Shown in pieces: positions 376-56,900 of a DNA stretch of 64,000 nucleotides (positions are counted from its first letter, which is position 1; every line of letters starts with the position of its first letter). Location: positions 62,001-126,000 of the forward strand of contig JAQGDQ010000147.1 of assembly GCA_030141605.1 (NCBI GenBank), read 5' to 3'. The position numbers were made by a program, and so were the translations under genes. The stretch comes from Tubiluchus corallicola (taxonomy: Eukaryota; Priapulida; Priapulimorpha; Priapulimorphida; Tubiluchidae). The notes under the pieces were generated by a model. The model was not told where the DNA came from. It did no database searches and was given only the letters and a program-made list of their open reading frames with translations.

Positions 376-380
376 TTATT
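375..380 (-). terminator. AATAAA overlapping the USP stop codon
   Basis: On the minus strand the last codons read CCG GTG CAA TAA AAA, so the hexamer AATAAA contains the stop codon. If used, the 3' UTR would be only about 10-30 bases. Confidence 0.55.
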
Positions 381-2593
381 GCACCGGATTCTCTAACTCT
401 GCCTCATGCAGTAATCTGTAAAAGAGGAGGTACGAGTTCTCACGTAGCAACTTGGTCCGTAATTCGAACGAAATGTTCACGCTTGACACATACTCATCGT
501 CATATTTGTACCACGGGCCACTTTCGGACTTTGTGTAGGCAACGTAGTGACCCGTAAACGTATTACCACTGCCGACATGCACACAAACACCATATAATTC
601 ATAAGTATGCCCACCGATGCTGTCCGAGGTATCCGTGTCCGGGTTTAGCGAAGCATCGAAAACGAAAGAAGACAGGTTCAAAACCAGTGGTATTTCCACC
701 GGCAAGTGGATTTTCCTCGATGAACCAATAACTTGATCGAATGTAAATCGCAAAAGTTGAACGACTAGGCACTCGGGAAGCTGACGCAGAAGAGTGACAC
801 GCTGACCGGTTGATCGCGAAATGATCGCAGGACTTTCCACCGGCGTCGATGTCCTAAATCGTGGATCCGAACCAAAAGTAAAATTGTCCCGTACAACGGA
901 TGTACCAGGGGCTATCACATTCGATTGTTTCTGAATATAGTTTGAATCCACACTACCCAGTCTACATGACCGACCAGCTGTGTCAGGGGTCCATTGTAGC
1001 CGTTGACTACTGATACTGGGCGATCCCATTTCTCTGACAGCCTGGTACCCCTTACAGGGACAGAGAAGCCCATTCCCACCTTGGAGTTTTTCGGCAGTTG
1101 TAAACTTTTGAAAACAATCTTCTAGGCGCACGACTGGCAAACGCGAATCGGTCTTTGATGTCAGGAGTGGAACGGGCAACATGCTGAACGTTTGTGTACT
1201 AACACTTATTCGATTACAAGCCATACAATGCTGCACTTCTATAAGCTGGCCTGTGAACATATCATCCACAGGAGAAGAATTCTTGTCCTTGTAGGTCATC
1301 CACTGTAGATCAGATAGCCGTTGCAAAGGCTCGGCTAATTTACTATGATCTAAATTACCACTCAGTTCAATTTGTTGCTGGCACTCGAGGATTAAAGCTT
1401 CGACGGCGTGAGGGGTCAAGTCTCTGTAGATGTGTTTTAACAGTCCCAGAGGTGTCTTGCGATCATTGTTCAGCTGTGGGAAGCTGCGCAATGGGCTTGA
1501 CTGTGGACTGGCAGCTTTCACCTTCACATTCAATGAAGCATGTAACACATAGAACAACCAGAGTAAAAATTCGGCTACGTCCTGCTGTGCTTGCTCCAAA
1601 GCAGCGTCAGCGATTAGAGCAGGATTTAAGAGAGAACCGGCTTGACAGAACGTGAAAGAGTCCAATGCAGAGACCTTGCACACTTTGGAACTATCCATCA
1701 ATTTGAGCATCTCTGCAATCAAATCCGATTCCGGACTGGAAATGTTGGGAATTGTTTTCACGTTATCGTAGATGGCCTGTGAGAGACCGGGTGTTCGGAA
1801 CAAGCACTGCAACACAGAGTTCACAAAACAAATGTTACGTCCGCTGTTTTTCATACCAGGGGGCTTTTCACCATAAATACTTCTTCCCAGAAAAGTCATC
1901 AAGCGGTTTTTCACTGTCTGTTCTTGTACCACGGGGTTTACTCTTGTGGTGCTTGCTGTGCTAGATAATTTGTCTGGAGCTATCACTGGAGACACACTGG
2001 CACCATGCTTGTGTCCGGCTGAATAAACATCATGTTGACTACGGCGTAACCATGGAGCAGAGGCGCAAACAACAGCTGCATTGCCCATATTGGCACTGTT
2101 TCCACGTCTAAACTCTTCCAAGCTCCTCCTTCTTAGCTCAGTGTCATATCTGGAGTTAGTGTTTCCAAATCCAAGCCAATGGTATGGCTGGCTGTCTTCA
2201 GAAATGGTCGGATAGTGATCGATTACAGCACTGGCATATTCACTACGTGGCGCTTTTACATTTCTGACATCAAAGCTCGACTCTTTCACATCAATTTCTA
2301 CAAAATCACCACAACTCACATCTGGAACATTGTAGTACGATTTATATACACAATTCACTATACTGACTAGATAGGTTTTTATAGACTGAAAGCAGTAAAT
2401 GACCGCAACAAGAACTTGCCTGATGAATGTACGGACTTTTGCTTTAAAATCTCTGTCACACGAAGACAGAAAAGTAATGATGGTTAGAGACAGCAAAACC
2501 AGTGGAAAATGATGAAACACATGAATAGCAAAACTAATGGACAACAATAGTAATGACTGGTACTTCCACAATGATCGTCTTTCAATTTCGTCC
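376..2593 (-). CDS. USP-family ubiquitin carboxyl-terminal hydrolase, last coding exon, N-terminally anchored
   Basis: Peptidase C19 deubiquitinase that should cleave ubiquitin from substrates. The 3' acceptor (tttatttcag) ends at 2594, so the exon starts at 2593; a frame opened at 2571 would use TTG, and the first in-frame ATG lies about 160 codons in, so the true start must be in an upstream exon not found here. Counting from 2571: two hydrophobic stretches (about 5-37 and 53-75) suggest membrane insertion. The Cys box (GMKNSGRNICFVNS) has the nucleophile near C248; QQDVAEFLLWL near 329-339 is the usual QQDAxEF helix; the His box (TGHYVAY) is near H675 and the Asp pair near D691. The finger shows CxxC (449/452), then only CxC (504/506) in place of the second CxxC. 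LLFYRL closes the fold. All catalytic residues are present. FLLWL recalls USP31/USP43, but the subfamily is unresolved. Confidence 0.9.
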
Positions 2594-2644: not shown

Positions 2645-3365
2645 TTAATTGACTCAAAAACATCTGGAACAGGCCAGTCTATTCAAATGTAAATAAAAAC
2701 AGTCGGGAATTCACTCAAATAACTCGGCATAATTGGCTTAACTTTTTTCTTTCACGTTCTTAAAATAAGACACTTCTGTGTGCCCAAAGAGCTTTCACTG
2801 CTTTTATGTTATCTTTACATCGATTCTGTGCACCATAATGTATGTAGTTCTAACAGTCATGTTGAGAACAGCTTTGTTTGTAAGCAGGTACAGTATGTAT
2901 ATCACATGTGCTAATAGGTTGACATAGAGGTTTTGCTATCTGTCACCTGCTCATCTGGTGCTATTAACCTCATTGTTTCTGGAAGCTAAGCATTTAATCC
3001 ATTGTTTAGCAGTTGGCTTTTGAAGCTCCTGCTGCTTTTCACAAGGTCATCACCAACTGCACTAAGTGACTAGATGTTTTGCGTGATTATATGGAGCATA
3101 TCATAACAGTTTTTCAACGTTTTTATCTATATGAGAATTTCATAAACAAAATTTTTCGTGAAGAAATGAAGCAACCAACCTTGAATGAGTTTTTGTAATT
3201 TTTAATGGTAATAATCAAAATTTTTTAATTTTTACTTTTTTAGTTAATTCAGCTATATAAATTATGCTTCCTAAATAATTCCACATAGGTATTTTTGACA
3301 TTAATTCGTTTGTAAATTCATTTAAAGCCTTTGCAATGGGTATTAAGTTGATGAGTGATGGCTCG
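2645..3365 (+). mobile_element. Pogo/Tigger-like non-autonomous element, copy D, both ends missing
   Basis: About 720 bp aligns by eye with the copies at 31880-32838 (same orientation), 46665-47614 (inverted) and 48602-52096. Shared landmarks include GACTCAAAAA, TATTCAAATGTA, TTCTGGAAGCTAA and TTTTTCAACGTTTTTAT. The CAGTAGGCACC termini are absent, so this is a truncated copy. It lies just upstream of the USP exon, inside its intron. Confidence 0.7.
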
Positions 3366-9870: not shown

Positions 9871-10030
9871 TTATAACCATAAATAAAAGAGAAAATGATT
9901 GGAATTATGGCTTTATTCCAATTTAAAGAGCAGCGCCATTCCAGTTACAAGTTAAGGTGCACTGGTTAAAAGAACACCAAACCAAAGTGTTGTAACAGGC
10001 ATAGATATTAATTAGTTACTCAACATAACA
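9871..10030 (-). repeat. 3' LTR of the retrotransposon
   Basis: 160 bp identical to 14028-14187. On the minus strand it begins TGTTATGTTG right after the polypurine tract. It carries GGAATAAAGCC, a polyadenylation hexamer. It ends GGTTATAA followed by AT, where the 5' LTR has CA. Confidence 0.93.
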
Positions 10031-10290: not shown

Positions 10291-13200
10291 TTAATCACAA
10301 TAGCGTGCTGGCATTTTCCCTTTGTTTGCTCTAGAAGACCTCCTTACAGATTCTATTTCTTCACTGTCATGTGCAATTTCTGTAATCTCTTCCTTCCCAC
10401 TAGTGAAAACTCCATCCATCTTTGTATTAAGTGTATCCTGATTTGAGACTGTTTCTGTGTGTACAACGTTATGGGAATTCACAGGTTCCATGACCAGTTT
10501 TCTTTGAGGTTCTTCATTCTCTCCATCTATCACTGCTCTGCCACCTTCATCAACCTTTCCGCATGGTGCTAAGTCTTTAATAGATACAGTGCTTTCCCGG
10601 CCATCACGATATCGTATATGTGCATATTGGGGATTTGCTTCAATTAAATCTACCATATCCACTAGAGGATCAGACTTGCAGGTTCTAACAAATCGTCTTA
10701 ACAGTACCGGTCCAGGGGAAGTGAGCCAGCTGGGCACAGAACCTCCACTAGCTGATCTGCGAGCAAAATTAAAAAACAATTCATGTGGGGTGGCATTAGT
10801 GGACGTACACAGTAATGACCGAATCGCATGTAATGCTTCTGGTAAAACAATCTCCCAAGCTTTGATGTCTAAATTCTTGGATTCCAGTGCTAACTGTATC
10901 GACTTCCATATTATTCCATTGTATTTTTCACATTGCCCATTACCACGTGGATTATATGGAGTTGTTCGGCTAGTTGCAATTCCCCTGGAGTGCAGAAATT
11001 CTCGAACTTCTGCTGACAGAAAACTAGCACCTCGATCCGAATGTATGTAAGCTGCACATCCACAAAGTGAAAAAATTTGACTAAGGCCCTGTATCACAGT
11101 CTGAGCAGATAAATCTGCACACGGTATGGCAAATGGAAATCGGCTATACTCATCCACTACAGTTAGAAAATATTTGTTTGAGGTGCTACTGGGCAAAGGA
11201 CCTTTAAAGTCAATGTTCAACCTTTCCATTGGTCGCACAGCTTTAATAAGAGTTGCTCGTTCAGGCTTCATGAATCTAGGTTTCAATTTACAACATGCTG
11301 GACACTGAAAAGTGATTTTACGAATTTCATCCAAAGTATATGGTAAGTTTTTGGTTCTCACAAAATGGTACAGCCTAGTAGTTCCTGGGTGACATAAAGC
11401 CTCATGCAAAGTTTTTAAGTAATTCAAATCTGAAAATGTAGTTGCGCATCTGGAAAGTGCATCTGGGGCTTCATTATTTTTGCCCGGTCTGTATCTAATA
11501 TCATAGCTAAATCCTGTTAACTGTACCCTCCATCTCTGAATTTTATCATTCTTTACTTTACTTTTCTGCTTTTGATCAAACATGAATGATACTGACCTTT
11601 GATCTGTCACTAAGGTGAAGTGTCGCCCCATTAGAAGATGTCGCCATCGCTCCAATGATTCTACTATAGCATAAGCTTCTTTCTCCACAGAAGCATGGTT
11701 TCGTTCTGAACGATTTAGTGTCCTAGAATAAAAGGCCACTGGTCTTCCAGCTTGATTTAATGTAGCAGCAATTGCCGTTTCAGATGCATCTGTTTCCACC
11801 ACAAAAGGTATGTCGTCCTCTATATCTTTAATAGCTGCAGACTCAATATCAGCTTTCAGTTGAAAAAAAGCATGTTTTGCTTCACTGCTTAAAGGAAATT
11901 TATTAGCTTCATTCAGAGGCCTTATCTTTGCTGAAAAATTTGAGATCCATTGCGAATAGTATGCAAATAATCCTAATACACGTTTAAGCGACTTCTGACT
12001 GTTTGGCTCTGGCATATCCTGTAATGTTTTCAATCTATCAGGATCTGGTTTGATGCTCCCTTTGCTAATCTGATACCCCAGCATTTTAACTGTTTCCGTA
12101 GAATAGACACACTTTTTCTCGTTAAGTGTTAAGTTTGCTCTTTTTGCAGCCTCTAATAATTTCTGCAAATTTTCATCATGTTCTTGCTGAGTCATGCCAC
12201 CTAGTGTAATGTTGTCCAGATATGCATACGTATCTTTCAAACCAAAGTCCTGAATAAACTCATCCATTTTCCTCTGAAAACAGGAAACTCCATTGGTGAT
12301 TCCAAAAGGCAGGCATGTAAATTGATATAATTGCCCATTAGCTTCAAATGCCGTATATTTTCTATCTTGTTCTCTCAGCGGTATCTGATGATATGCTGAT
12401 TCCAGATCTACAGTACTATAAAAACGGTATTTAGCCATTGTATTTGCTAAATCACTCATTCGTTTAGCCGGATAAGCATCAAGTTCTGTAAATCTATTTA
12501 TTGTTTGAGAATAGTCTATCACTAGTCTTCTGCGGTGATTTTCATTAGTAGTGACCAGTACCTGGGCCCTCCAAGGCGAATTAGATTTCTCAATTCTACC
12601 GTCTTTTAGCAGTTTTTCCACCTCTAGCTCAATGAATTTCGTTTTCTCGATGTCGTACCTTCGCGATTTAGTTGCCACTGGTTTAATGCCATCTGTTAGA
12701 TTCTGAAAAGGCTCAGCCGGAGATATTTTCGCTCTCATTAATCCACAAACTTTTAGCGGTTCCTTCCCTCCCCCAAAATGAAGAGTAACTTTCTCGTGCT
12801 GAGACATGAAATCATGTCCTAAAATTACGTCAGCACACAGATTTCGTAGAACAAGCAATTTAACAGCATAATTTCTGTTTTGAAGAATCATATCTACATT
12901 ACATACCGATTTCACTTCAAAACTCGATGTGGCAACTGCCATTCCAACTTTGTCATTTGTTTGATCACATGGAATGCCCAATTGTTCTACAATTTCAGCA
13001 TTGATGTATGAATCTGAACTGCCGCTGTCTATCAGTGCCTTCAATTCTGTTTGCTGAATAGTAATTTTTACTGTCGCTTTAGTTAAACTGTTAGGAGTTC
13101 CATTCTGTTGATGTGCAGTTGCTAAAGTTAACCAGTTCGATTGATAATTATCACTTTTGTTCTTTCTCACAAGTGATGCAGTTGTCTTTTCAGTACATTT

Positions 13201-14001
13201 TCTTGAAAAATGTCCCCATTTGTTGCACTTAAAGCACTGTTCATTTTTCGCGGGACACTTATTTTTGAAGTGGCTATATCCGCAAGATTCACACACAGTC
13301 TTAGAATTTGGATTAGCCCTAGCACCGTAATGTTTTTTCTTTATGCTAGCAAGAGAACAATCTCCGTGGTCATCTTCTTTACTTGCCGTAAAAGCCGCTA
13401 TACCACCAATGTCTGACATTGCATTTCCGATATAATTTGATGAATGGGCCATAGCCATTTCTGTAGATTTGGCAGTTTTTAACACTTTGTCCAAATCCAG
13501 CTCTTCACAGTCTACTAGTATCTTCTGCCTAATCTCATTTGAAGCCAATCCAGATATGAAGGCAGATAGGATGGCTTCGTTTTTGTACTGCTCTGCACTA
13601 ACCGCATCAAACGAACACTCCTTAGCTAATTCTCTCAGAGTCTGCACGAATTTATCAATAGAATCACTTGACTTCTGCTTACAAGTCATCAATGCATGCC
13701 TAGCATAATGAATATTCTTTGGCTTTAAATAAACTTTTTTTAACGTGTCAACAGCGTCCTTGTAACTCTTGCATTCCGAAAATACTTTAAAAACTGAAGC
13801 AGATACGTAGTTCGTTAACAGTTCAAATTTCCTTCTATCTACTTCTTCCGCCACGGCTGCTACTTCATCCTCTTCTGCTTGTTTAGCCACTGCCCTTCCT
13901 TGAAAATTTTCGAATGTTTTCAACCAGTGCTGAAATTCTTCGTCAGCTGAGCTAGAATTCGGGTCCACACTTAGCCTCTCAGGTCGAAGATATTTGTCCA
14001 T
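10291..14001 (-). CDS. Gag-Pol polyprotein of the LTR retrotransposon
   Basis: The frame opens at 14037, but the first Met after the leader (ATG at 13999-14001, MDKYLRPERL) is the likely start: 1236 residues. Counted from it: Gag region about 1-230; zinc knuckles CX2CX3HX4C (C237, C240, H244, C249) and CX2CX4HX4C (C256, C259, H264, C269); aspartic protease LIDSGSS with D325; reverse transcriptase with VDLESAYHQ (D532) and YLDN (D596, N597), where most relatives have YxDD; RNase H with D738; integrase zinc HHCC (H866, H871, C900, C903); catalytic D931, D989, E1025. No chromodomain is visible; the tail is acidic, then basic. Gag and Pol are fused without frameshift or stop, so nothing visible sets their ratio. 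Apart from the Asn in YLDN, all expected catalytic residues are present. Confidence 0.93.
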   Translation of the reverse strand: MDKYLRPERLSVDPNSSSADEEFQHWLKTFENFQGRAVAKQAEEDEVAAVAEEVDRRKFELLTNYVSASVFKVFSECKSYKDAVDTLKKVYLKPKNIHYARHALMTCKQKSSDSIDKFVQTLRELAKECSFDAVSAEQYKNEAILSAFISGLASNEIRQKILVDCEELDLDKVLKTAKSTEMAMAHSSNYIGNAMSDIGGIAAFTASKEDDHGDCSLASIKKKHYGARANPNSKTVCESCGYSHFKNKCPAKNEQCFKCNKWGHFSRKCTEKTTASLVRKNKSDNYQSNWLTLATAHQQNGTPNSLTKATVKITIQQTELKALIDSGSSDSYINAEIVEQLGIPCDQTNDKVGMAVATSSFEVKSVCNVDMILQNRNYAVKLLVLRNLCADVILGHDFMSQHEKVTLHFGGGKEPLKVCGLMRAKISPAEPFQNLTDGIKPVATKSRRYDIEKTKFIELEVEKLLKDGRIEKSNSPWRAQVLVTTNENHRRRLVIDYSQTINRFTELDAYPAKRMSDLANTMAKYRFYSTVDLESAYHQIPLREQDRKYTAFEANGQLYQFTCLPFGITNGVSCFQRKMDEFIQDFGLKDTYAYLDNITLGGMTQQEHDENLQKLLEAAKRANLTLNEKKCVYSTETVKMLGYQISKGSIKPDPDRLKTLQDMPEPNSQKSLKRVLGLFAYYSQWISNFSAKIRPLNEANKFPLSSEAKHAFFQLKADIESAAIKDIEDDIPFVVETDASETAIAATLNQAGRPVAFYSRTLNRSERNHASVEKEAYAIVESLERWRHLLMGRHFTLVTDQRSVSFMFDQKQKSKVKNDKIQRWRVQLTGFSYDIRYRPGKNNEAPDALSRCATTFSDLNYLKTLHEALCHPGTTRLYHFVRTKNLPYTLDEIRKITFQCPACCKLKPRFMKPERATLIKAVRPMERLNIDFKGPLPSSTSNKYFLTVVDEYSRFPFAIPCADLSAQTVIQGLSQIFSLCGCAAYIHSDRGASFLSAEVREFLHSRGIATSRTTPYNPRGNGQCEKYNGIIWKSIQLALESKNLDIKAWEIVLPEALHAIRSLLCTSTNATPHELFFNFARRSASGGSVPSWLTSPGPVLLRRFVRTCKSDPLVDMVDLIEANPQYAHIRYRDGRESTVSIKDLAPCGKVDEGGRAVIDGENEEPQRKLVMEPVNSHNVVHTETVSNQDTLNTKMDGVFTSGKEEITEIAHDSEEIESVRRSSRANKGKMPARYCD

Positions 14002-14008
14002 CTTTTGT

Positions 14009-14024
14009 TTTAAATTGGAATAAA
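14009..14024 (-). other. Candidate primer-binding site, complementary to the element's own LTR
   Basis: Minus strand TTTATTCCAATTTAAA lies one base after the 5' LTR terminus (ATAACA, ending 14026) and seven bases before the gag-pol ATG. It is an exact 16-base reverse complement of 14069-14084 inside the LTR (and 9912-9927 in the 3' LTR). It does not end like the complement of a tRNA CCA end (no TGG at its start). This matches the self-priming layout known for Tf1. Confidence 0.65.
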
Positions 14025-14025
14025 T

Positions 14026-14187
14026 TGTTATAACCATAAATAAAAGAGAAAATGATTGGAATTATGGCTTTATTCCAATTTAAAGAGCAGCGCCATTCCA
14101 GTTACAAGTTAAGGTGCACTGGTTAAAAGAACACCAAACCAAAGTGTTGTAACAGGCATAGATATTAATTAGTTACTCAACATAACA
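14026..14187 (-). repeat. 5' LTR of the retrotransposon
   Basis: 162 bp, minus strand TGTTATGTTG...GGTTATAACA, with hexamer inverted termini TGTTAT/ATAACA. It matches the 3' LTR exactly over 160 bp. Very short for Ty3/gypsy. GGAATAAAGCC sits about 110 bases in, so the putative R region starts around there. Confidence 0.92.
14069..14084 (-). other. LTR segment complementary to the primer-binding site (putative self-primer)
   Basis: Minus strand TTTAAATTGGAATAAA, containing the AATAAA hexamer. If transcription starts just upstream of 14084, the RNA 5' end would fold back onto the primer-binding site with a 44-base loop, as in Tf1. I see only a weak TATA-like TTTTAA about 40 bases upstream. Confidence 0.5.
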
Positions 14188-17150: not shown

Positions 17151-20100
17151 ATGGGTCAATCAAGTTTTTGGCAACAATTAAAAGCCTTGTTGCACAGAAA
17201 TTTGCTCATAAAATGGCGATCCAAAGGTCAAACAGCTCAAGAAATCTTAACGCCTTTGTATTTTGTCGTCATTCTGATCGTTGTTGGGACATTTTCTGTA
17301 ACTGATGAAGAAGAGAAAATTCCTTCTTTTCCACAAGTAGATATATACAGTTCATTTCACTTTTTTCCTGGATACACAAGTTTTTATGGGGCAACACCAA
17401 ACTCATCACATGTTGCTGATTTTATGTCTGCCACAATGGAGGAATTAGGAAATGCTTTCAACATGACACAGCCACCAGAATACATGTTGTTTGAAAATGA
17501 AGAACTAATGGAAAGTTTTTATGAAATAAATGGTAGCTCTATGTCGCTTGCAGTGGTGTTTGGTGACAATGACCCACTAAAAGACTTGTCATACACAATT
17601 AGGCTTCCTGAAAAGTATATGTCCTTAGCAATAAATCTAAACAGCATGTACGGTTATCAAGGAAACTGTAGAAGGGTCAGCCCACCATATCCTATTCCCT
17701 TGTGTCTCGAAAACTACTATATATTTTCTGGTTTCGCTGTATTTCAGTCAGTCATCGATACTACATTTTTAAAGTTGAAAACAGGTAGGCAGAATTTAAC
17801 ACAAAAACTATACATTCGTCAGATGCCAAAGAGTTCACTTGTTCCTAATTTGGTTCTTCTGCAAACTCTGTCTTCTATTTATTTGGTTGCAGCATTTTCA
17901 CCTTTCGTATCATTTTTGTTGGTACTGCTTGTTTACGAAAAAGAGAAAAAAATAAAGGAGACCATGCGGATGATGGGAATGAGGGATTCTGTTTTTTGGA
18001 TATCGTGGGGATTGATCTACACTGCCATGGTCACCATTATCTGTCTGATTGTTGAAATTTTGGCAAAATTTTTGGGTCTATTTCCCGGTAGCAATTTCTT
18101 ACTGATGTTTTTGCTCTTTCTCTTTTACTGTTTGTCAATAATTACTTTTGGTTTCATGCTTACTCCATTTTTTTCTAAATCAAATACTGCGGGTGCTGTA
18201 GGAAGCTTTGCAACGGTCCTATTTTCAATGCTTTATTTTCTAGTAAAATATGTGCCAAACTTGAGCAGTGGTGTCATATGGTTGTTACGCATTCTGTCTC
18301 CTGTTGCTCTCGCGCTTGCAGTTGATGACACAGTTTTGTATGAAACTACTGCGGGTGGTATTAGTTGGGATAACTTTACTGAGGGATACTTTGGTAGCAG
18401 TATGTTGATGCTAATCATAGATACTTTCTTATACCTGTTGTTAGCAGCGTATTTAGATAACGTTGTCCCTGGTGAATTTGGCAGTCGATACCCTTTGTAC
18501 TATTGTTTCATGCCTTCTTATTGGTGTCCACCTGATCCATCGAATAAGGAACATTATGGACTGTTACAGGAAGATAGATCTATACACTGCATGAGCGATG
18601 GGAATAATGCCAAGGACATGGAGCCTATTTCTCAGGAATTCATTGGCAAAGAGGCAGTTAAAATATACAACATTACTAAAGTTTTCAAAGGAGCCGATGA
18701 TGAAGATATAAAAGCTGTGGATGATTTTTCTATCATATTTTACGAAAGCCAAATTACTGCTTTGCTTGGCCACAATGGAGCAGGTAAGACAACTCTTATT
18801 AATATATTGACAGGCATGATTCCACCCACAAGAGGTAAAGCCACCATTAATGGTTTAAATGTGTCAGAACCTACTGAGTTGAATGTCATTCGTACAATGA
18901 CAGGCGTTTGTCCTCAACATGATATACTTTTTGATCAACTGACCTGCAAGGAACATTTAATTGTCACTGCAAAGCTGAAAGGTGTGATCGCTGATCGAAT
19001 AGAGCCAGATGTAAATGCAATGCTGGAAGAACTGGATTTAGACGAAAAGGCTACAACAATAGCAAAGAAACTTAGTGGTGGTCAGAAAAGAAAGTTATCT
19101 CTTGCTATAGCACTTATTGGTGATCCAAAGATTGTGTTTTTGGATGAACCGACAAGCGGTTTGGATCCTTATTCTCGTCGAACAGTTTGGTCTCTTCTTC
19201 GTGAACGCAAGAAAGGAAAAATGATTTTGCTTACTACTCATTTCATGGATGAAGCCGATATTTTAGCAGATCGTAAAGCTATTATGTCTCTGGGGCGGCT
19301 AAGATGTGTTGGTTCTTCACTATTTCTAAAAAACAGGTTTGGAATCGGGTATCACTTATACTTGGTTATTAATTCAGAATGCGTGCCAGATTATGTAACA
19401 GCTGTAGTTATGGTGCACGTACCTACTGCACAGGTTGCTCGAATTCATGGAATGGAATTGTCCTATATTCTACCTCTAAAAAATGCTAGCAGTTTCTCAA
19501 AAATGTTTGCTGAGCTAGATGAAAAAAAGACTGAGCTGGGAGTTTGTAGTTATGGTATATCTATGACGACCTTGGAAGAAGTGTTTCTTAAACTTGGTGA
19601 AGGAGCAGATGAAATTATGGGAACAGAGGTAGAAGTTGCACAACATTTAGTTAAAAGACAGGCAAGTATGATGGGTGTTACTGACGAGAAGCGCAGTTGT
19701 TCTACACAGCGCCAGGTAAGCTGTCAGGTTGCACAGACGGCTAATAATGCTGAGATACTGCAGGTGACAGCTGGGCCACTCAGTTGTGGTACTTTGGTGT
19801 CTGAAGTGGAACAACATTCTCTGCAAGTTTCTCGCTGGCAACAATTTAAAACACTTCTTAGAGTACGTTGGCTAAATATACTGCGCAGCCCCAAGGCAGT
19901 AGTATTTCGAGTTGTACTTCCGGTGATACTGGTAATCATAAGCATGGTGTTTTTAGCAACTTATAAACCTCCAGAAACTAAGCAACCTGTCTTAGTTTTC
20001 TCTCACAACATGTACCCAGGTCCCTTGTTGTACATAAATTCGACTACAGGTGAATCATTAGATGACTTGGTTAACATTATTAGTTCATTAAATATTACCC

Positions 20101-22274
20101 CATCACTACTGTCCTCATATGATGACATCCTCTCTTTGCCAGGAGCTCATTATCTGGCAATGGATATTCGCTCATTTATGAGAGATGGAGAGGCAGTGGA
20201 TTGGGTGGCAATATACAATGACACCGGCATACACACTGTGCCAGTCCTATTCAACTTATTTGCAACATCACGTTTGTATGCTCTTACAGGCAATGAATCA
20301 TCAGTTATAACAACAAAAATAAATACGTGGAAATCGAAGGAATCCGAATTTACTTGGGACACGAATACATTTATAGCTGTGATGTTTTTGGGAACTGCTC
20401 TTTCTGTGGTGCCAGCAGGTTTTTCAGCTGAAATAGTAAGAGACCGTCAGATAAAATGCAGCAGTCAATTAAGGGTGTCAGGCATAGAGTTTGCAGTTTA
20501 CTGGGGCACATTTTTTGTCTCTCATATTATTCAGTGCTTAATACCATTTGTCCTGTGCTTGGCTGTAGTTTTAATATTTGACTTAGAACTTTTTAGTTCT
20601 GCAGGAGCTGTGCTCAGTATGATACTGCTAATCATACTTTGTCTGCCAGTCATTACTTTCAGTTCATATGCACTGTCATTTGTGTTCAATAATTACCAAA
20701 CTGCAGAAGGCATTGTAGCTTCACTTAATTATATGGCCGCTTACATTCCTTATATGGCTGTTGTTATGCCTGATATGTTTGGTGCAGAAAATGTTGCTTC
20801 AGCACTCCATATTGTCTTCTGTGTTATTGATCCATACTATTTATTACTTGGAGGCTTATATTATATCAGCAAAGTTCATGCAGTTGGGTTGATTTCAAAT
20901 CAATCATCTACAGTATCTAGTTACTTTAGTTGGAGCTCAAATATACCAGTTACGATGTTGGTTGCTGTAATAGACTTGTTTGCATTGGCACTACTAGTAA
21001 GGATTCTAGCTGTATTCAAGACTGGAGGAGACATAAGAGATGCTCTCTTTCTTGGCGGTAAACTTGCTGGAAAAAACAGGTCGTTTCCATTGAGCAATGC
21101 AGATAAGATAGACGACGAGGACAGTGATGTAAAGGAAGAGAGAGATAAAGTGGAACAGTATAATACTCCAAGTGATCCTGACAGTAATGAAAGTCAAGTT
21201 CCAGTTGTCATGGTGAGGAATTTGAGGAAAGAATACAATGGAGGTGGGTGCTGCAATACAAAGAAAAATATAAAAGTGGCAGTAAGAAACTTAAGTCTGG
21301 CCATAGATAGAGGAGAAGTGTTCGGCTTACTTGGTCCAAATGGTGCAGGAAAAACATCAACTCTAAATGTTATTACTGCTGAGGAAAGTCCCACAACTGG
21401 CAATGTAATGGTAACTGGTTATGACGTTACTTCATGTCTATCCGATGCTTTTCAAGCAATGGGTTACTGTCCACAACATAACGCACTCTGGCCAGATATT
21501 ACAGTTAGAGAACATCTGGAGAGCTATGCATCGATTCGTGGGATGAGCCCAGCCAATGTAAAAAGTGTAGCTAGTTATTTTTTGGATGCACTCAGTATTT
21601 CTGAGCATGCTGACAAGAGAGCTAAACAAATTTCAGGAGGCACTAAAAGAAAATTGAGCTTTGCTATGAGCATGCTAGGTGAACCAAAGATAGTATTGCT
21701 TGATGAACCATCTAGTGGCATGGATCCACAAGCTAAGCGTTTTCTATGGGACACGATTAGTGCCAGCTTTGTTGGCCAACGTGGTGCAATCCTCACGACT
21801 CATTCAATGGAAGAGGCTGATGCTTTATGCAGTAGAGTTGGTATTATGGTTGGGGGAGCTCTGAGATGTCTTGGTTCAACACAACATCTAAAAAACAAAT
21901 TTGGGGGAGGGTACTTACTTGAAATTAGAGGTAATTGGTCTGGCACAACATCTGATAGCCAAGAAAAAATGGATGAATTGCATGCATATATTGTGGAATT
22001 ATTTCCCATGGCTACTCGCAGAGAACATTTTGCTGAAAGGGCGACATACCATGTGCCTCAGAGTGATGTGAAATCACTTTCAAATGTTTTTGCAAACTTA
22101 GAGCAAGGTAAGGAAAGAGGTATTGCACAGTATAGCTTCAGCCAGTCAACACTTGAACAGGTATTCTTACAATTTGCAAAAATTCAAGAAGAAGAAGATT
22201 TCGATGACAATTTCTCTGTGATCAAGGATGACCAGCCAAAACACGTTTTCAGGTCCCTGTCATTGAATGTATGA
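17151..22274 (+). CDS. ABCA3: ABCA-subfamily full ABC transporter, ABCA3-like, single coding exon
   Basis: A 1707-residue frame, close to the length of vertebrate ABCA3 (about 1700). ABCA proteins use ATP to move lipids across or between membrane leaflets. Order: cytoplasmic start; TM1 (about 31-49); long lumenal loop with Asn-X-Ser/Thr sites; TM bundle (about 235-440); nucleotide-binding domain 1 with Walker A GHNGAGKTT (about 539), signature LSGGQKRK (about 641) and Walker B IVFLDEPTSGLDP (about 660); TM7 (about 925); second lumenal loop; TM bundle (about 1085-1300); nucleotide-binding domain 2 with GPNGAGKTS (about 1395), ISGGTKRK (about 1495) and IVLLDEPSSGMDP (about 1514). The second signature has Thr for Gln, otherwise canonical. 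The coding region has no intron, unlike every other host gene here. The ATG is the first Met before the conserved LKALLHRNLLIKWR start. Confidence 0.96.
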   Translation: MGQSSFWQQLKALLHRNLLIKWRSKGQTAQEILTPLYFVVILIVVGTFSVTDEEEKIPSFPQVDIYSSFHFFPGYTSFYGATPNSSHVADFMSATMEELGNAFNMTQPPEYMLFENEELMESFYEINGSSMSLAVVFGDNDPLKDLSYTIRLPEKYMSLAINLNSMYGYQGNCRRVSPPYPIPLCLENYYIFSGFAVFQSVIDTTFLKLKTGRQNLTQKLYIRQMPKSSLVPNLVLLQTLSSIYLVAAFSPFVSFLLVLLVYEKEKKIKETMRMMGMRDSVFWISWGLIYTAMVTIICLIVEILAKFLGLFPGSNFLLMFLLFLFYCLSIITFGFMLTPFFSKSNTAGAVGSFATVLFSMLYFLVKYVPNLSSGVIWLLRILSPVALALAVDDTVLYETTAGGISWDNFTEGYFGSSMLMLIIDTFLYLLLAAYLDNVVPGEFGSRYPLYYCFMPSYWCPPDPSNKEHYGLLQEDRSIHCMSDGNNAKDMEPISQEFIGKEAVKIYNITKVFKGADDEDIKAVDDFSIIFYESQITALLGHNGAGKTTLINILTGMIPPTRGKATINGLNVSEPTELNVIRTMTGVCPQHDILFDQLTCKEHLIVTAKLKGVIADRIEPDVNAMLEELDLDEKATTIAKKLSGGQKRKLSLAIALIGDPKIVFLDEPTSGLDPYSRRTVWSLLRERKKGKMILLTTHFMDEADILADRKAIMSLGRLRCVGSSLFLKNRFGIGYHLYLVINSECVPDYVTAVVMVHVPTAQVARIHGMELSYILPLKNASSFSKMFAELDEKKTELGVCSYGISMTTLEEVFLKLGEGADEIMGTEVEVAQHLVKRQASMMGVTDEKRSCSTQRQVSCQVAQTANNAEILQVTAGPLSCGTLVSEVEQHSLQVSRWQQFKTLLRVRWLNILRSPKAVVFRVVLPVILVIISMVFLATYKPPETKQPVLVFSHNMYPGPLLYINSTTGESLDDLVNIISSLNITPSLLSSYDDILSLPGAHYLAMDIRSFMRDGEAVDWVAIYNDTGIHTVPVLFNLFATSRLYALTGNESSVITTKINTWKSKESEFTWDTNTFIAVMFLGTALSVVPAGFSAEIVRDRQIKCSSQLRVSGIEFAVYWGTFFVSHIIQCLIPFVLCLAVVLIFDLELFSSAGAVLSMILLIILCLPVITFSSYALSFVFNNYQTAEGIVASLNYMAAYIPYMAVVMPDMFGAENVASALHIVFCVIDPYYLLLGGLYYISKVHAVGLISNQSSTVSSYFSWSSNIPVTMLVAVIDLFALALLVRILAVFKTGGDIRDALFLGGKLAGKNRSFPLSNADKIDDEDSDVKEERDKVEQYNTPSDPDSNESQVPVVMVRNLRKEYNGGGCCNTKKNIKVAVRNLSLAIDRGEVFGLLGPNGAGKTSTLNVITAEESPTTGNVMVTGYDVTSCLSDAFQAMGYCPQHNALWPDITVREHLESYASIRGMSPANVKSVASYFLDALSISEHADKRAKQISGGTKRKLSFAMSMLGEPKIVLLDEPSSGMDPQAKRFLWDTISASFVGQRGAILTTHSMEEADALCSRVGIMVGGALRCLGSTQHLKNKFGGGYLLEIRGNWSGTTSDSQEKMDELHAYIVELFPMATRREHFAERATYHVPQSDVKSLSNVFANLEQGKERGIAQYSFSQSTLEQVFLQFAKIQEEEDFDDNFSVIKDDQPKHVFRSLSLNV

Positions 22275-31473: not shown

Positions 31474-34400
31474 ATGAAACCACCAAAGAGAGAACGAGTT
31501 GAGAAGAAGGTAATAGAAGATAATGAGGAAGTTCCTACAAAACACAGAAGAAAACGTCTTCGACGGTGGACTGTTGTTGAGAAAAAGGCAGTACTTGATG
31601 CCATTCAAAGGTATCTTAACTGTTTAGTCTTTCTTCATCATGCATACATACATCACTGTAGACTAGCTGTGCTATCTGATTGAGAGTGTTGTAAATGACC
31701 ATGTAAAATAAATTTTACAAAGGACGGTTCGTAAATGTCATGTTAACTTTATATTTTGCAGCTTAATTGGAAATATGATTCTGAATTTTTAAATTTTATT
31801 ATTCATCTATTAAATGTGTTGATTTTGCAGAACATCATTTAAATTTGCCTTTTAATGCATAGTAACATTATAGATAATACAGTAGGCACCTCTTAATAGA
31901 CTCACGGTTAATAGACTCAATTGCTTAATTGACTCAAAAATGCCTGGAATGGGCCTCTTCTATTCAAATGTACGTAAAAACTATGGGTAACTGACTCAAA
32001 TAACTTTGCTTAATTGACTCTATATTTTCCATCGCGTACCTAAAATAAGATATTTGTATGTGTCCAAAGAACCTTTCCTACTTTTATGTCATCTTTACCT
32101 CCTTTTTGTGCACTATGTATGCAGAAACAATCATATTAAGTACCATTTTGTTTGTAAGCAGGTACGTTTATCATGCGCTAATACGCTAGCATAGCAGTTT
32201 TGCTTTGAATCTGTTGCCCGCTCGCCCACTGTTACCCAAAGAATTTCTGGAAGCTAAACATTTAATCACTTGCCAAGCAGTTTCCTTTTGATACTCTCGT
32301 TGGAAATCACACTTTCGGGCTTAATGAGTTAACAGTCAAATATACAGGTACAGTAATCAGCTGGTATTCCTTGTGACTTACAAGAGTAAACATCATACAG
32401 CAAATAAGGGCAATGTAAGTGAGCAGATGATTGAGAACTGTTTTAGTCAGATTTTCAACGTTTTTATTATTATGAGAACTTTGTTGGCCAACTTCGCGAG
32501 AAAATAAAGCAGCCGACCTTGAAGGAATTTTTGTAATTTTTGCAAATAAACAGACTTAAAAAAGTCGGTGATTTAAAAATGTATACTTTTTAATTTATTG
32601 CTAATTCACTTATATAAATTAATATTTTAAAATATTTTTTCTAATTTTTAACTGCACAAAGGAATTTAGGTATTAGTTCGTTTCTAGAACTCATTAAAAA
32701 CCGTTGCAGTGCATAGTAAGCTGATGACTCATACTTCTCTATACCTGTAATAATGCACCCCTCGGTTACTAGGTTCAATCGGTTAATTGGGTCAAAACAC
32801 ATCGGTCACAAAGTGAGTCTATTAAGCGGCACCTACTGTATCTCAACGGATCAAATGACAATTTATTGTTTGTAAAACTTTGTATTATGTTTTAGGTATG
32901 GCAGTGATGACCTTCGTTCAATAATTCCATGTGTGAAATCTAGAAGTACATCGGAGGTAATTTGTTACGTACTTCGAATACTATGTATTTTATTTATTTA
33001 ATAACGCTGAACAACACTTGCTGCTTTTTGCTAGGATTGTCATGTTTACATATGTAAACAGAGGCATTTCGTTTAGTCACTCTGAATGCTTATTGATTTT
33101 TGTAAACGATAAACTGCTCCCTTCACTTTGTTTTCTTTAACAAGACAATCATCCTGAGAATGTACGCAGACAAACTTACCACTCTCGTTTATTTCTTTTA
33201 ATATGTATTTTTGTTTACTAGTTGTTAATATATTAGTGAGAAGTATGTGAATTTATTTAATCCCAGAATTGAAGGGTTAAACTAGTAAATAACCTACTAG
33301 CTTTGAACATACCAAGTTGCTGATAAACAGCGACAGTCAGTCTACTGAGCCGAAGCTGATGTTTTTGCTCTTCCAAGGCTGTTACAGTATAACTAATCAG
33401 TACTAATAACCTTTTTAACAATCCATCTAAAAGCATGTTATTTCCCTCACATTGCTGTTGAAATATTTGCATAAATGGATTCACAAGTTTACGTAATGCA
33501 TGCACACTAGAACAAGTGGAAAAAAGGATATGCCATAGCTGTGGCTTATCCGACTTTCTTTATTTTGTAAGGTAGACAAATTTCACAACTTTTGACAATT
33601 TTACATTAAAATTCCTTCCCAACCCTTTCTATTTGTATTCCTTCCTAATCTTTCTATTCTATTAAAAAATAAATATTATAGCATAGATTTATGGCTTCAA
33701 ACAAGCGAATACGAACTTGTACTGTATAATATTTAAAACACTGCCAATATTTAGAAATTAATTTACCTGTTAGGTTATCAAAATGTTAGACTGGAATGCA
33801 ATGTCAAAAGGGCAAAGCAAATAGTTTAGTGAATAGTCTAGCAGCAGTGTTTAATTAAGGCACCTAGACATTGTATTCCAAGCTAGATATTACAGATATT
33901 AAAGGCAATATATAGCTTGATAGAAGGTGATTTGTATGAGGAGGCATTTCACATTCCCACATACGAGCACACGTTTGTATAATACTGTAAACTGGCAGAA
34001 ATATAAACTAAATTTATGCAAATAGGGCTTCAAAGCATTGTTTGAGAAGAGATATTTTTGTGAAGCATGATTCTAAACAAATTACGTAGGTAAAGATTAA
34101 TGGAAATGCAAGCTTCATTTCATAATCATTGGTATGCATTGCTGCTTAGTGGGCACCAGTACAGTAAAACACATTGCCAAGTAATCCAATTATTTTAATA
34201 ATACAGTTTGTGATGAGTAGCGTATATAAGCACCTGCGCATTTACCAGCACCTTCGTTACTAGCGTATTTTATGCACCTGGAAATTAGTGCGTCAAAGCC
34301 ATCCGTGCAAATTTCGCAGATATTTCCATCAAGCATTAATTTTATCTGTATACAAATATTTTACAGTGTGGAAACAAAATCGTTTCATTTAGTAGGTGTA

Positions 34401-39001: not shown

Positions 39002-52481
<13,480 letters not shown>

Positions 52482-53908: not shown

Positions 53909-56900
53909 ATGGCAGGCAGAGGTTGGAGCACAGAAACCGTGGTTGCTGAGTATCGTGACCTGCAGGCTACTGCAATGGCTGTTGATTGTACTGGACAATA
54001 TGCTGTGCTTGCTGGGTATGTGAGTTAAATATTAGGTCTTCATCAATTTTTTCGTAAAATGCTAAGAAGTTATTAGCTTTACAAATTGCAAAACATGTGG
54101 TGAGCCTGTGTTTGCGTAATTTTTTTAGATGTTAGCACTTAATGTACTATATTAATTTTTACTGCCGTTTTTTTTTTGTTTATGAAAAGTGAAACTCACA
54201 ATATTTTAGGCGTAAGCAGTTAGCCATTGTTAACCTGGATGACCCTCTTGAACAAATCAAACGTATTTCTCGGCAGAGCAAGTATGAAGTCAGTGTTGTG
54301 CAGTGGAATCCGCATTTTTCACATAAAGATATTTTTATCACCGCTGTAAGTTGAATATGAGTTTTTCAATCCATAGTGTAATGAATTTGAGTTTCAATGT
54401 ACATAGGTATATTTTTGCTCTTTCTTTATTGGACTTAAACTTTTTATAGCACTGTGGTGTTAGTCAACAGTATTGCCGATATTGCTACACATCAATGTTT
54501 ATGCAGGTACCAAAAATCACACTCGGCTACCTTTTCTATTATGCCCACTGGTTACCTAGGTACTCAATTGTTAACATTCAGTGACAGTGAAGAAATTGAA
54601 ATTATTCTTGTTGACAATATAAAACAAGCACTAGTGCACTTCAACTAACTGCATTATTATTTTAACGATATACATTCATTTATTACATGCTGAGGGCTTG
54701 AAGACAGGAACTATGAGTCAAGATAGTTAGTGTTTTGCCACACATGACAAATGACTGAGTTTTTGCTCTTATCAGCTAGACTTCTTAATTACTTATATTG
54801 CACGATTTGTCAATGAATCAGCTACATTAGCCTAGGACCTTGATACCATGCTAAGCACTTTAAATGCTGTGTGTAAGGATTAGGGGACTATATAATAATT
54901 TGTGTTATCCTTTTTGTATGCAAACCATTTATTTGCACCTTTGTTAGTGGTCATAAGTGTTTAAATGTTAATAACAGACAATTTCATTTAGATGGTCAAC
55001 CTTTTGGTAAGGAAATCATAGTTTGTTTTTTGTAGGTCACCCCAACAGCATAAGTGATGCTTGCAACTGATAGAGATAATCGCTTTTAACTTACCCATGC
55101 TTTCATACAGTAATTCTAATAATAAAGACCAACGTGTTTGATTTTAATGTCTAACATCTAATGTATTTGAGTTTAGGCTGGCATTGTGCACTAGAGAAGT
55201 TGTTTTCAATAAACAGGCATGATGCACTGACTGTGCAGCAGTTAATAGTTTGCTAGTAGGTACCTACTGTAAAAATTATCAGCCGAAGGTGGTGTTATAT
55301 CATGGATATCATATTAGCAATAATGTCTGCATTTTCATTTTTGAAACCCACTCGTTTATCAGCTCGTTTAGTTAAAAATGTGTGCAGTTATTCGGGTACC
55401 CAATGGAAACACCACATAGTTGCTCATACGATCATAAAGTACTCATTTTTTATTCTAAAATAAATTACACAATATAATGTTTTTTGTGACTTTTTGTTAA
55501 TTATATGTGATCTGTTCTAGTGATTTAAAGCAAAAACCAACCCTTCAATGAACAGTCGTTGTATTTTAATATACACTCAAAAATGACCACATAATATTAT
55601 ACATGCATAAAATGCCTTGATTAAAAATGTACAAGAAATTTAAATAATTCATATCTCTTGCCAAACAAGCCCTGTTACAGGCACATTTGAAAAAATTAAC
55701 GTATGCTAGTGGACAACATAAAAACATGCGTAGCAGCACGAAAACATGCGCCACTCAGAAATCCCGCTGTGCTAGCTGATTAAATCTCTGTGTTGTTTAA
55801 CTATGTTTATGTAAAAATTAGTTAATTATCAGTAACTTTAAAGTGTTTACGTAGCTTTAATCCACAGGATTGTGCCTCAAAATGCGTAAGTAAGACACAT
55901 AATATGATTACTGTGGAATTCTGTAAGGTTGCGAGTACACAGAAGGTGCTGAGCGATTTACTTACCTAGTACAGCTCAGTTTTAGCTTGGTAAAATAATT
56001 ATTATCGTACTTTGTTGACATTAACTTGCGGAGTTGGCTATTATTATATTATTGTGGATAACTGGTTTTCATTAAATAATAATAGGTGGCAGCATTCATC
56101 AAAAAGCAAAAAAATGATATTATTAATTCTTGTTTAACATTTTGGATTGTTTATAGTTGGTAATAGTAACTATAGGTGCAAAAGAAGTGCGCTTAAGCAC
56201 CTAGCAAGATAAGTGTTTATTTTGCACAGTAACCGATTGATGCCATTTTTCATGCAAAATTGGATCGACCAAATGGAAGTGTTCAAGACCTTGAATTGAT
56301 TTTACTAATTACACCAAGCACTTATCACAATTTTATTACTGAAACTTTCTAACATTTTTCTAATATATTTAAATAAATTGAACTTCCCGAGAAACTTGGA
56401 TTTTGCTTTAATAAGTGTACTGTGCTAATATGACTGGTAACATTACACCAAGCACCTATCACAATTTTATTACTGAAACTTTCTAACATTTTTCTAATAT
56501 ATTTAAATAAATTGAACTTCCCGAGAAACTTGGATTTTGCTTTAATAAGTGTACTGTGCTAATATGACTGGTAACATAAGAACTATATGTTGTGAATTTT
56601 TTTTTTAATTTGAATGTGAAGCCAACCAAAAACGTTAGACTTCATCATCTGCATTGTGGTTTTTCAATCTTGGGGTGGGTCGCAAAGCAAATTTTGTGGG
56701 GTCGCGAGCATTTGCTTGCTATGTAAAAAAAAACTGTACAATGTCATTAACTTCCTACACTCAAAATGATAAACTGAGTGGATCTCTGGCAACTTTAAAA
56801 TTACTAGAAGAGAGTGGCTGCTAAATGTTTCACCGTGTTGCCTCGTCTGAATGCGGATTTAGAAATCTCCCAATGCAAAGATAGTGAAGTGGACAATCTT

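Follow-up and report, generated by a model that had tools for sequence, protein, structure and literature searches.

We find that a Ty3/Gypsy element in the genome of Tubiluchus corallicola probably uses part of its own RNA to prime minus-strand DNA synthesis, in the manner of Tf1, judging from sequence comparisons and predicted RNA folds. A segment of the element's LTR has the potential to pair with a site just past the LTR, and a distant relative has changed both partners of this pairing in step. Tf1-like self-priming in a Gypsy lineage without a chromodomain is the best reading of these observations. An earlier annotation made from the letters alone (the sequence-only reading) had put forward self-priming without a chromodomain as a candidate; the complement itself, the two-sided changes in the relative and a comparison with host tRNAs now support that proposal. 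The priming of LTR elements is treated as mostly tRNA-dependent. Self-priming has hitherto been tied to the Tf1/sushi chromoviruses of fungi, vertebrates and some plants, with a further prediction in one plant copia lineage.

The element and its self-complement

The element lies complete on the minus strand of the 64-kb stretch of DNA analysed here (the window), with both LTRs and one gag-pol frame (Table 1). Its membership of Ty3/Gypsy is indicated by the TG...CA LTRs, by the TGTTAT...ATAACA ends and 5-bp target duplications of other copies and by the order of its Pfam domains, which run gag, retropepsin (aspartyl protease), reverse transcriptase (RT), RNase H and integrase as in Gypsy elements; zinc knuckles are also visible by eye in the gag-pol frame. 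The two LTRs agree without a difference over 160 nt, indicating a recent insertion despite the YLDN motif of the RT. Pfam detected no chromodomain in the element at E 0.001, and none in its C-terminus even at E 10, in agreement with the earlier statement that none was visible. An Rfam search of the window gave no match. The window copy itself has a 3' LTR that lacks the terminal CA and no visible 5-bp target duplication (9871-10030, 14187/14188), unlike other copies, as would follow from either trimmed-end integration or a later deletion at the junction. Upstream of its ATG, the gag frame stays open across the candidate primer-binding site (14037-14002) as far as another ATG, in frame and within the LTR.

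Table 1. Features of the Gypsy element in the window, with positions given in the direction noted for each feature
Feature	Position	Strand	Description
5' LTR	14187-14026	-	162 nt, TGTTATG...TATAACA
Putative self-primer, LTR segment TTTAAATTGGAATAAA	14084-14069	-	3' end is AATAAA
AATAAA poly(A) signal	14074-14069	-	inside the putative primer; read directly
Second stem, 5' arm GCCAUAA	14068-14062	-	directly after the primer segment; from the fold
Second stem, 3' arm UUAUGGU	14039-14033	-	near the LTR end; from the fold
Leader	14025-14002	-	24 nt between the 5' LTR and the gag ATG
Candidate primer-binding site TTTATTCCAATTTAAA	14024-14009	-	exact complement of 14084-14069; A14025 separates it from the LTR
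gag-pol single frame	14001-10291	-	ATG at 14001, stop at 10291
RT active-site stretch YLDNITLGG	12222-12196	-	Asn replaces the second Asp of YxDD
Polypurine tract GAGGGAAGAA	10040-10031	-	precedes the 3' LTR; identical tract before the 3' LTRs of other copies
3' LTR	10030-9871	-	160 nt; equals the 5' LTR minus the terminal CA

On the plus strand, 14009-14024 (TTTAAATTGGAATAAA) and 14069-14084 (TTTATTCCAATTTAAA) are exact reverse complements of 16 nt, as the sequence-only reading had noticed and direct comparison confirmed. When LTR and leader were both shuffled with dinucleotides preserved, a run of at least 16 nt arose in 1 of 20,000 trials (a 17-mer), and across both strands of the window no second 28-nt stretch had a 16-nt complement in the 164 nt preceding it. 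Target duplications of 5 bp flanking other copies set the ends of the LTR, and hence the site begins one base (A14025) past the LTR. Three further particulars of the earlier description hold as well: the site does follow the 5' LTR after a single base, the second arm does lie within the LTR and include AATAAA, and the measured leader is nearly all primer site. The hexamer AATAAA is an established poly(A) signal.

The LTR and leader, used as a query, had at least 41 matches across the 343.5-Mb assembly (2344 contigs), and several copies are flanked by 5-bp target duplications (GGCCC, CCTTT, ATCAC, TACGG, CCACT and TATAG). The site is visibly retained in six copies. Four of these (L001, which is the window copy, L002, L004 and L005) have the exact complement, and the other two carry single mismatches, in the LTR segment of L003 and in the site of L008. 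In two older copies, L124 and L125, the stretches at the expected start have no match to LTR or leader. Over the 41 LTR matches, the primer segment varies less than U3 (0.043 versus 0.078 per site) and ranks 16 of 147 windows in conservation, which may be taken as mild support for self-priming.

Compensated changes in a distant relative and the search for a tRNA primer

When bacterial and archaeal assemblies were scanned with 120 residues of the integrase, a sole relative came up: L120 (JAAESD010000556.1), a contig of 3,949 nt recorded as 'bacterium isolate Ust_3', a bacterial MAG. We regard it as eukaryotic contamination. The same record contains a second Gypsy-like integrase (L122). L120 is 41% identical to the window element over gag and protease, 58% over RT and 63% over integrase, and its RT likewise carries YLDN. 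It has a single LTR at 237-435, whose ends were placed by eye using a purine tract and the TG...CA that follows it. The contig starts and stops within the last part of pol, as would happen if the assembler had merged two LTRs. Pfam found no chromodomain in L120 3500-3949 at E 0.001. The frame of L120 is also open across its own site.

The candidate site of L120 (TTTAATCAACAATA) again lies one base past the LTR and is the exact 14-nt complement of LTR positions 372-385 (TATTGTTGATTAAA), a length reached in 0 of 20,000 shuffles. Aligned to the window element from the primer 3' end, 9 of the 14 pairs are the same, 5 have changed on both sides and none is broken; when the LTR segment of one element is crossed with the site of the other, only 9 of 14 positions pair. 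The two LTRs otherwise lack significant similarity (best E 1.9). Both LTR segments finish with a hexamer of the poly(A) type, AATAAA in the window element and ATTAAA in L120, and GCC comes next in each. The sequence-only reading had proposed looking for compensating changes among genomic copies: they are absent from the six site-keeping copies of the genome, which share the site, and appear instead between the window element and L120. We regard these two-sided changes, as a comparison of sequences, as the decisive new evidence for the self-priming reading.

The same comparison bears on the view that the complement arose by chance or is a DNA-level hairpin without a role. The AT-rich sequence, the lack of covariation inside the young family and the mild conservation of the segment described above all agree with that view. 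It would nevertheless require two independent elements to carry, at the same place, complements that shuffling reproduced once and never in 20,000 trials each, together with five compensated pairs, and we find it hardly credible.

Other searches for relatives added little. The viral contigs scanned gave no usable one, and two of them, L078 and L079, were dropped because they matched over 20-25 residues only. A tblastn search of plasmids with the integrase piece returned 49 records, all below 60%; ten of these are 24-32% identical, several of the ten being named IS3 transposase. A sister copy, L126/L127 (C2043), has integrase pieces 44-47% identical to L120; L126 is decayed, with uncertain LTR ends, and gave no clear self-complement, the search reaching no more than 8 nt.

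The 24-nt leader of the window element has no TGG. Compared with 40 tRNAs of the assembly (40 of 49 hits, representing 16 anticodons and perhaps including some bacterial contaminants), its best match was 7 nt and internal to the tRNA, while tRNA 3' ends matched over at most 5 nt. A better match to a host tRNA, which the sequence-only reading had named as a sign against self-priming, was thus not seen in this partial set. The TGG sites of three control Gypsy families were compared with the same tRNAs and matched over 11 nt (L075, at the 3' end of tRNA-Ser), 9 nt (L077) and 6 nt (L073); since only one of the three reaches 10 nt, the test has limited power and gives no firm negative. In these three other Gypsy families of the genome, all with TGG sites, the self-complement after the LTR is at most 6 nt. 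The controls come from six fetched stretches (L073-L077 and L123), of which three with LTR pairs were counted and three without pairs left out; the LTR pair of L077 is 84 nt long with approximate ends. Some of the tRNA hits in the assembly, for example a bacterial-looking tRNA-Ile with anticodon GAT, hint at contaminant or symbiont contigs.

Half-tRNA priming is known for copia-type elements, and a half-tRNA or another host small RNA might prime at the site, making the match to the LTR secondary. The partial tRNA set leaves room for such a primer, as do the two of three TGG control sites that also have no 10-nt match. A conserved host RNA would, however, not be expected to follow the L120 site, where 5 of the 14 bases are different and the LTR of L120 has changed to match, and the longest match among the 40 tRNAs is the 7 nt given above; we consider priming by a host RNA very improbable.

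RNA folding and the proposed priming mechanism

When folded from 14084, the RNA of the window element forms the 16-bp primer duplex, against which a stem of 7 bp is stacked (z -3.71; as good in 0 of 200 shuffles). A 300-nt fold retains the primer duplex, with an unremarkable total energy (z -1.04; 33 of 200 shuffles equally good). With both primer arms held fixed, shuffled loops gave a stacked helix of at least 7 bp in 75 of 5000 cases and an equally good fold in 17 of 1000. A possible third pairing, of AAAAGA with UCUUUU, was noticed by eye. In the 3' LTR, which is not followed by a site, the primer segment sits in a weaker small hairpin. The RNA of L120 also folds with a stem beside the primer duplex (z -2.44; 3 of 200 shuffles as good); its stacked stem by itself is within chance (1109 of 5000 shuffles; 12 of 500 for energy). 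In Tf1, the primer:site duplex is flanked by two other duplexes, giving a three-duplex fold, according to the accessible text of PMC10085805; the first 11 bases of the RNA pair with the site and the cut falls between bases 11 and 12, as given in the accessible text of PMC7175516. The duplex and stacked stem of the window element agree with this scheme.

On the self-priming reading, the LTR segment, which would lie at or near the 5' end of the RNA, would pair with the 16-nt site past the LTR. The element's RNase H would then cut after AATAAA, at the AATAAA/GCC junction with the second stacked stem, and the freed 3' end of the primer would be extended into A14025 and the LTR end, U5 and R. Plus-strand DNA that copies the primer would renew the site with the sequence of the LTR segment; exact complementarity would consequently be kept during drift, and changes on both sides, like those of L120, are what this predicts. 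The primer duplex would also bury the 5' poly(A) signal in the computed fold and leave the 3' copy in its weaker hairpin, a difference that may have a role. All steps after the pairing are ones that we infer.

The main doubt concerns where the RNA starts; on the self-priming reading R would begin near 14084. A TTTAAAT lies at 14084 and a TCATTT about 31 nt downstream, both in the LTR, and these could be a TATA-like box and an initiator. If the RNA started at the initiator, the segment would be confined to the 3' part of the transcript, which would favour a role in end-to-end pairing. Ty1 and Ty3 RNAs pair end to end, and in a corresponding arrangement the site would pair with the 3' LTR copy of the segment, either on the same RNA molecule or on a second one, bringing the ends together while another primer is used. 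The primer segment is indeed also present in the 3' LTR, TTTAAAT and TCATTT fit an RNA start after the segment, and such pairing would likewise be kept by compensating changes. Against this, the leader, at 24 nt and with no TGG, has no room for another site, tRNA matches in the partial set do not exceed 7 nt, and the complement lies one base past the LTR, where a primer must sit, in two distant elements. We therefore judge end-to-end pairing with a separate primer improbable and prefer self-priming.

Lineage, a palindromic insertion and comparison with known systems

The sequence-only reading had called for placement of the RT in a Ty3/gypsy tree. In an RT tree the window element and L120 pair with 100/100 support on a long branch of their own. 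Seven other Gypsy RTs of the genome fall elsewhere, as does Ty3, the only outside reference, which itself sits on a long branch with its own place unsure. YLDN is shared by L120 and five nearly identical copies (L031-L035), YLVN stands in one decayed copy (L036/L038), and all 23 other Gypsy RT loci compared have YxDD. Sequences resembling the YLDN clade of the window element are presumably common in aquatic animal genomes. Among solved structures, the integrase piece 10291-11400 is closer to the prototype foamy virus integrase than to that of Ty3; the best match of the RT, unlike that of the integrase, is Ty3. A chromodomain search of the genome assembly gave 10 hits, which were left out of the comparison.

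One further copy, L065 (C1844), is a 301-nt palindromic insertion that reads U3-R-U5, one base, the site and then reverse-complement U3, with LTR starts at both ends. Its halves meet through the complement of site and LTR segment, the match stopping at LTR base 119 on one side and at the site on the other, and its U3 arms are 85% alike where aligned; inspection by eye shows differences from the window family that the two arms have in common. L065, an old copy and a single case, may be a fold-back product: the primer-site end of plus-strand strong-stop DNA would have folded back on the LTR segment and been extended to the LTR start. For self-priming it is a lead, not proof. Alternatively, L065 could consist of two unrelated LTRs nested in opposite orientation, which we consider rather unlikely though deserving of weight. 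The age of the copy and the 85% likeness of the aligned U3 arms leave space for nesting, as do a left LTR segment that has since diverged past TTTAAATTGGA, a target duplication matching at 4 of 5 bases (ATTAT/TTTAT) and a repeat-rich surrounding. A junction pattern allowing up to 3 mismatches matched no copy; this pattern was built from the young family and misses L065 too, and is hence uninformative on old palindromic copies. Nesting would not by itself be expected to join the halves through the site/LTR-segment complement, to place LTR starts at both ends or to give the arms their shared differences from the window family.

Self-priming has been implicated in elements from fungi to vertebrates, according to the available part of PMC4600332. 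The window element resembles Tf1/sushi elements in having a site past the LTR that is complementary to an LTR segment and, as far as the consulted parts of the sources describe them, in its single-ORF gag-pol and in a stem stacked beside the primer duplex. It differs in giving no chromodomain match, either itself or in the scanned stretch of L120, in that the primer 3' end of the window element coincides with the poly(A) hexamer, and in its YLDN motif and an RT that does not group with Ty3, the sole outside Gypsy reference; its complement of 16 nt (14 nt in L120) also exceeds the 11 nt described for Tf1 in the accessible text. For Tj1 of Schizosaccharomyces japonicus, self-priming was proposed from LTR:site complementarity (PMC4600332, available part); Tj1 differs in having a chromodomain and a fungal host (PMC10085805, accessible text). 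In the TAR lineage of plant Ty1/copia elements (Houba, Osr-1), self-priming outside Tf1/sushi has been predicted, as given in the available text of PMC6317226; in that text it is a prediction only, and for a different superfamily, Ty1/copia, in plant hosts. The fungal copia element GalEa has a conserved hairpin at the expected tRNA site and differs in that the site is palindromic, its authors detected no complementary U5 repeat and it belongs to the copia superfamily (PMC5445492, available text). In the open literature searched, no case of self-priming by an animal non-chromovirus appeared.

We tentatively offer, with more doubt than confidence, a joint reading: self-priming arose or persisted outside the chromoviruses, in a YLDN Gypsy lineage that is probably animal; the poly(A) signal doubles as the primer 3' end; the site is rewritten from the LTR in each cycle; and self-complementary plus-strand strong-stop DNA sometimes folds back, is extended as far as the LTR start and then inserts as a short palindrome bounded by two LTR starts, as in L065. 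Were this joint reading true, insertions like L065 could be made by self-priming elements only. A self-priming lineage without a chromodomain, if real, would show that primer choice can leave tRNAs more than once, and such elements might be freed from host control based on tRNAs. LTR:site complementarity with compensating changes is a simple genomic test that can be applied across animal genomes.

Elsewhere, the window contains an ABCA-type transporter of 1,707 aa in one uninterrupted frame (17151-22274, plus strand) and a 731-aa frame that encodes a ubiquitin carboxyl-terminal hydrolase domain (376-2571, minus strand). A dispersed repeat of about 1 kb is present in inverted orientation at 31871-32845 and 46658-47623 (86% identical), with partial copies at 2645-3360, 48599-48999 and 51812-52098, and a 136-nt sequence is tandemly duplicated at 56308-56577 with 99% identity.
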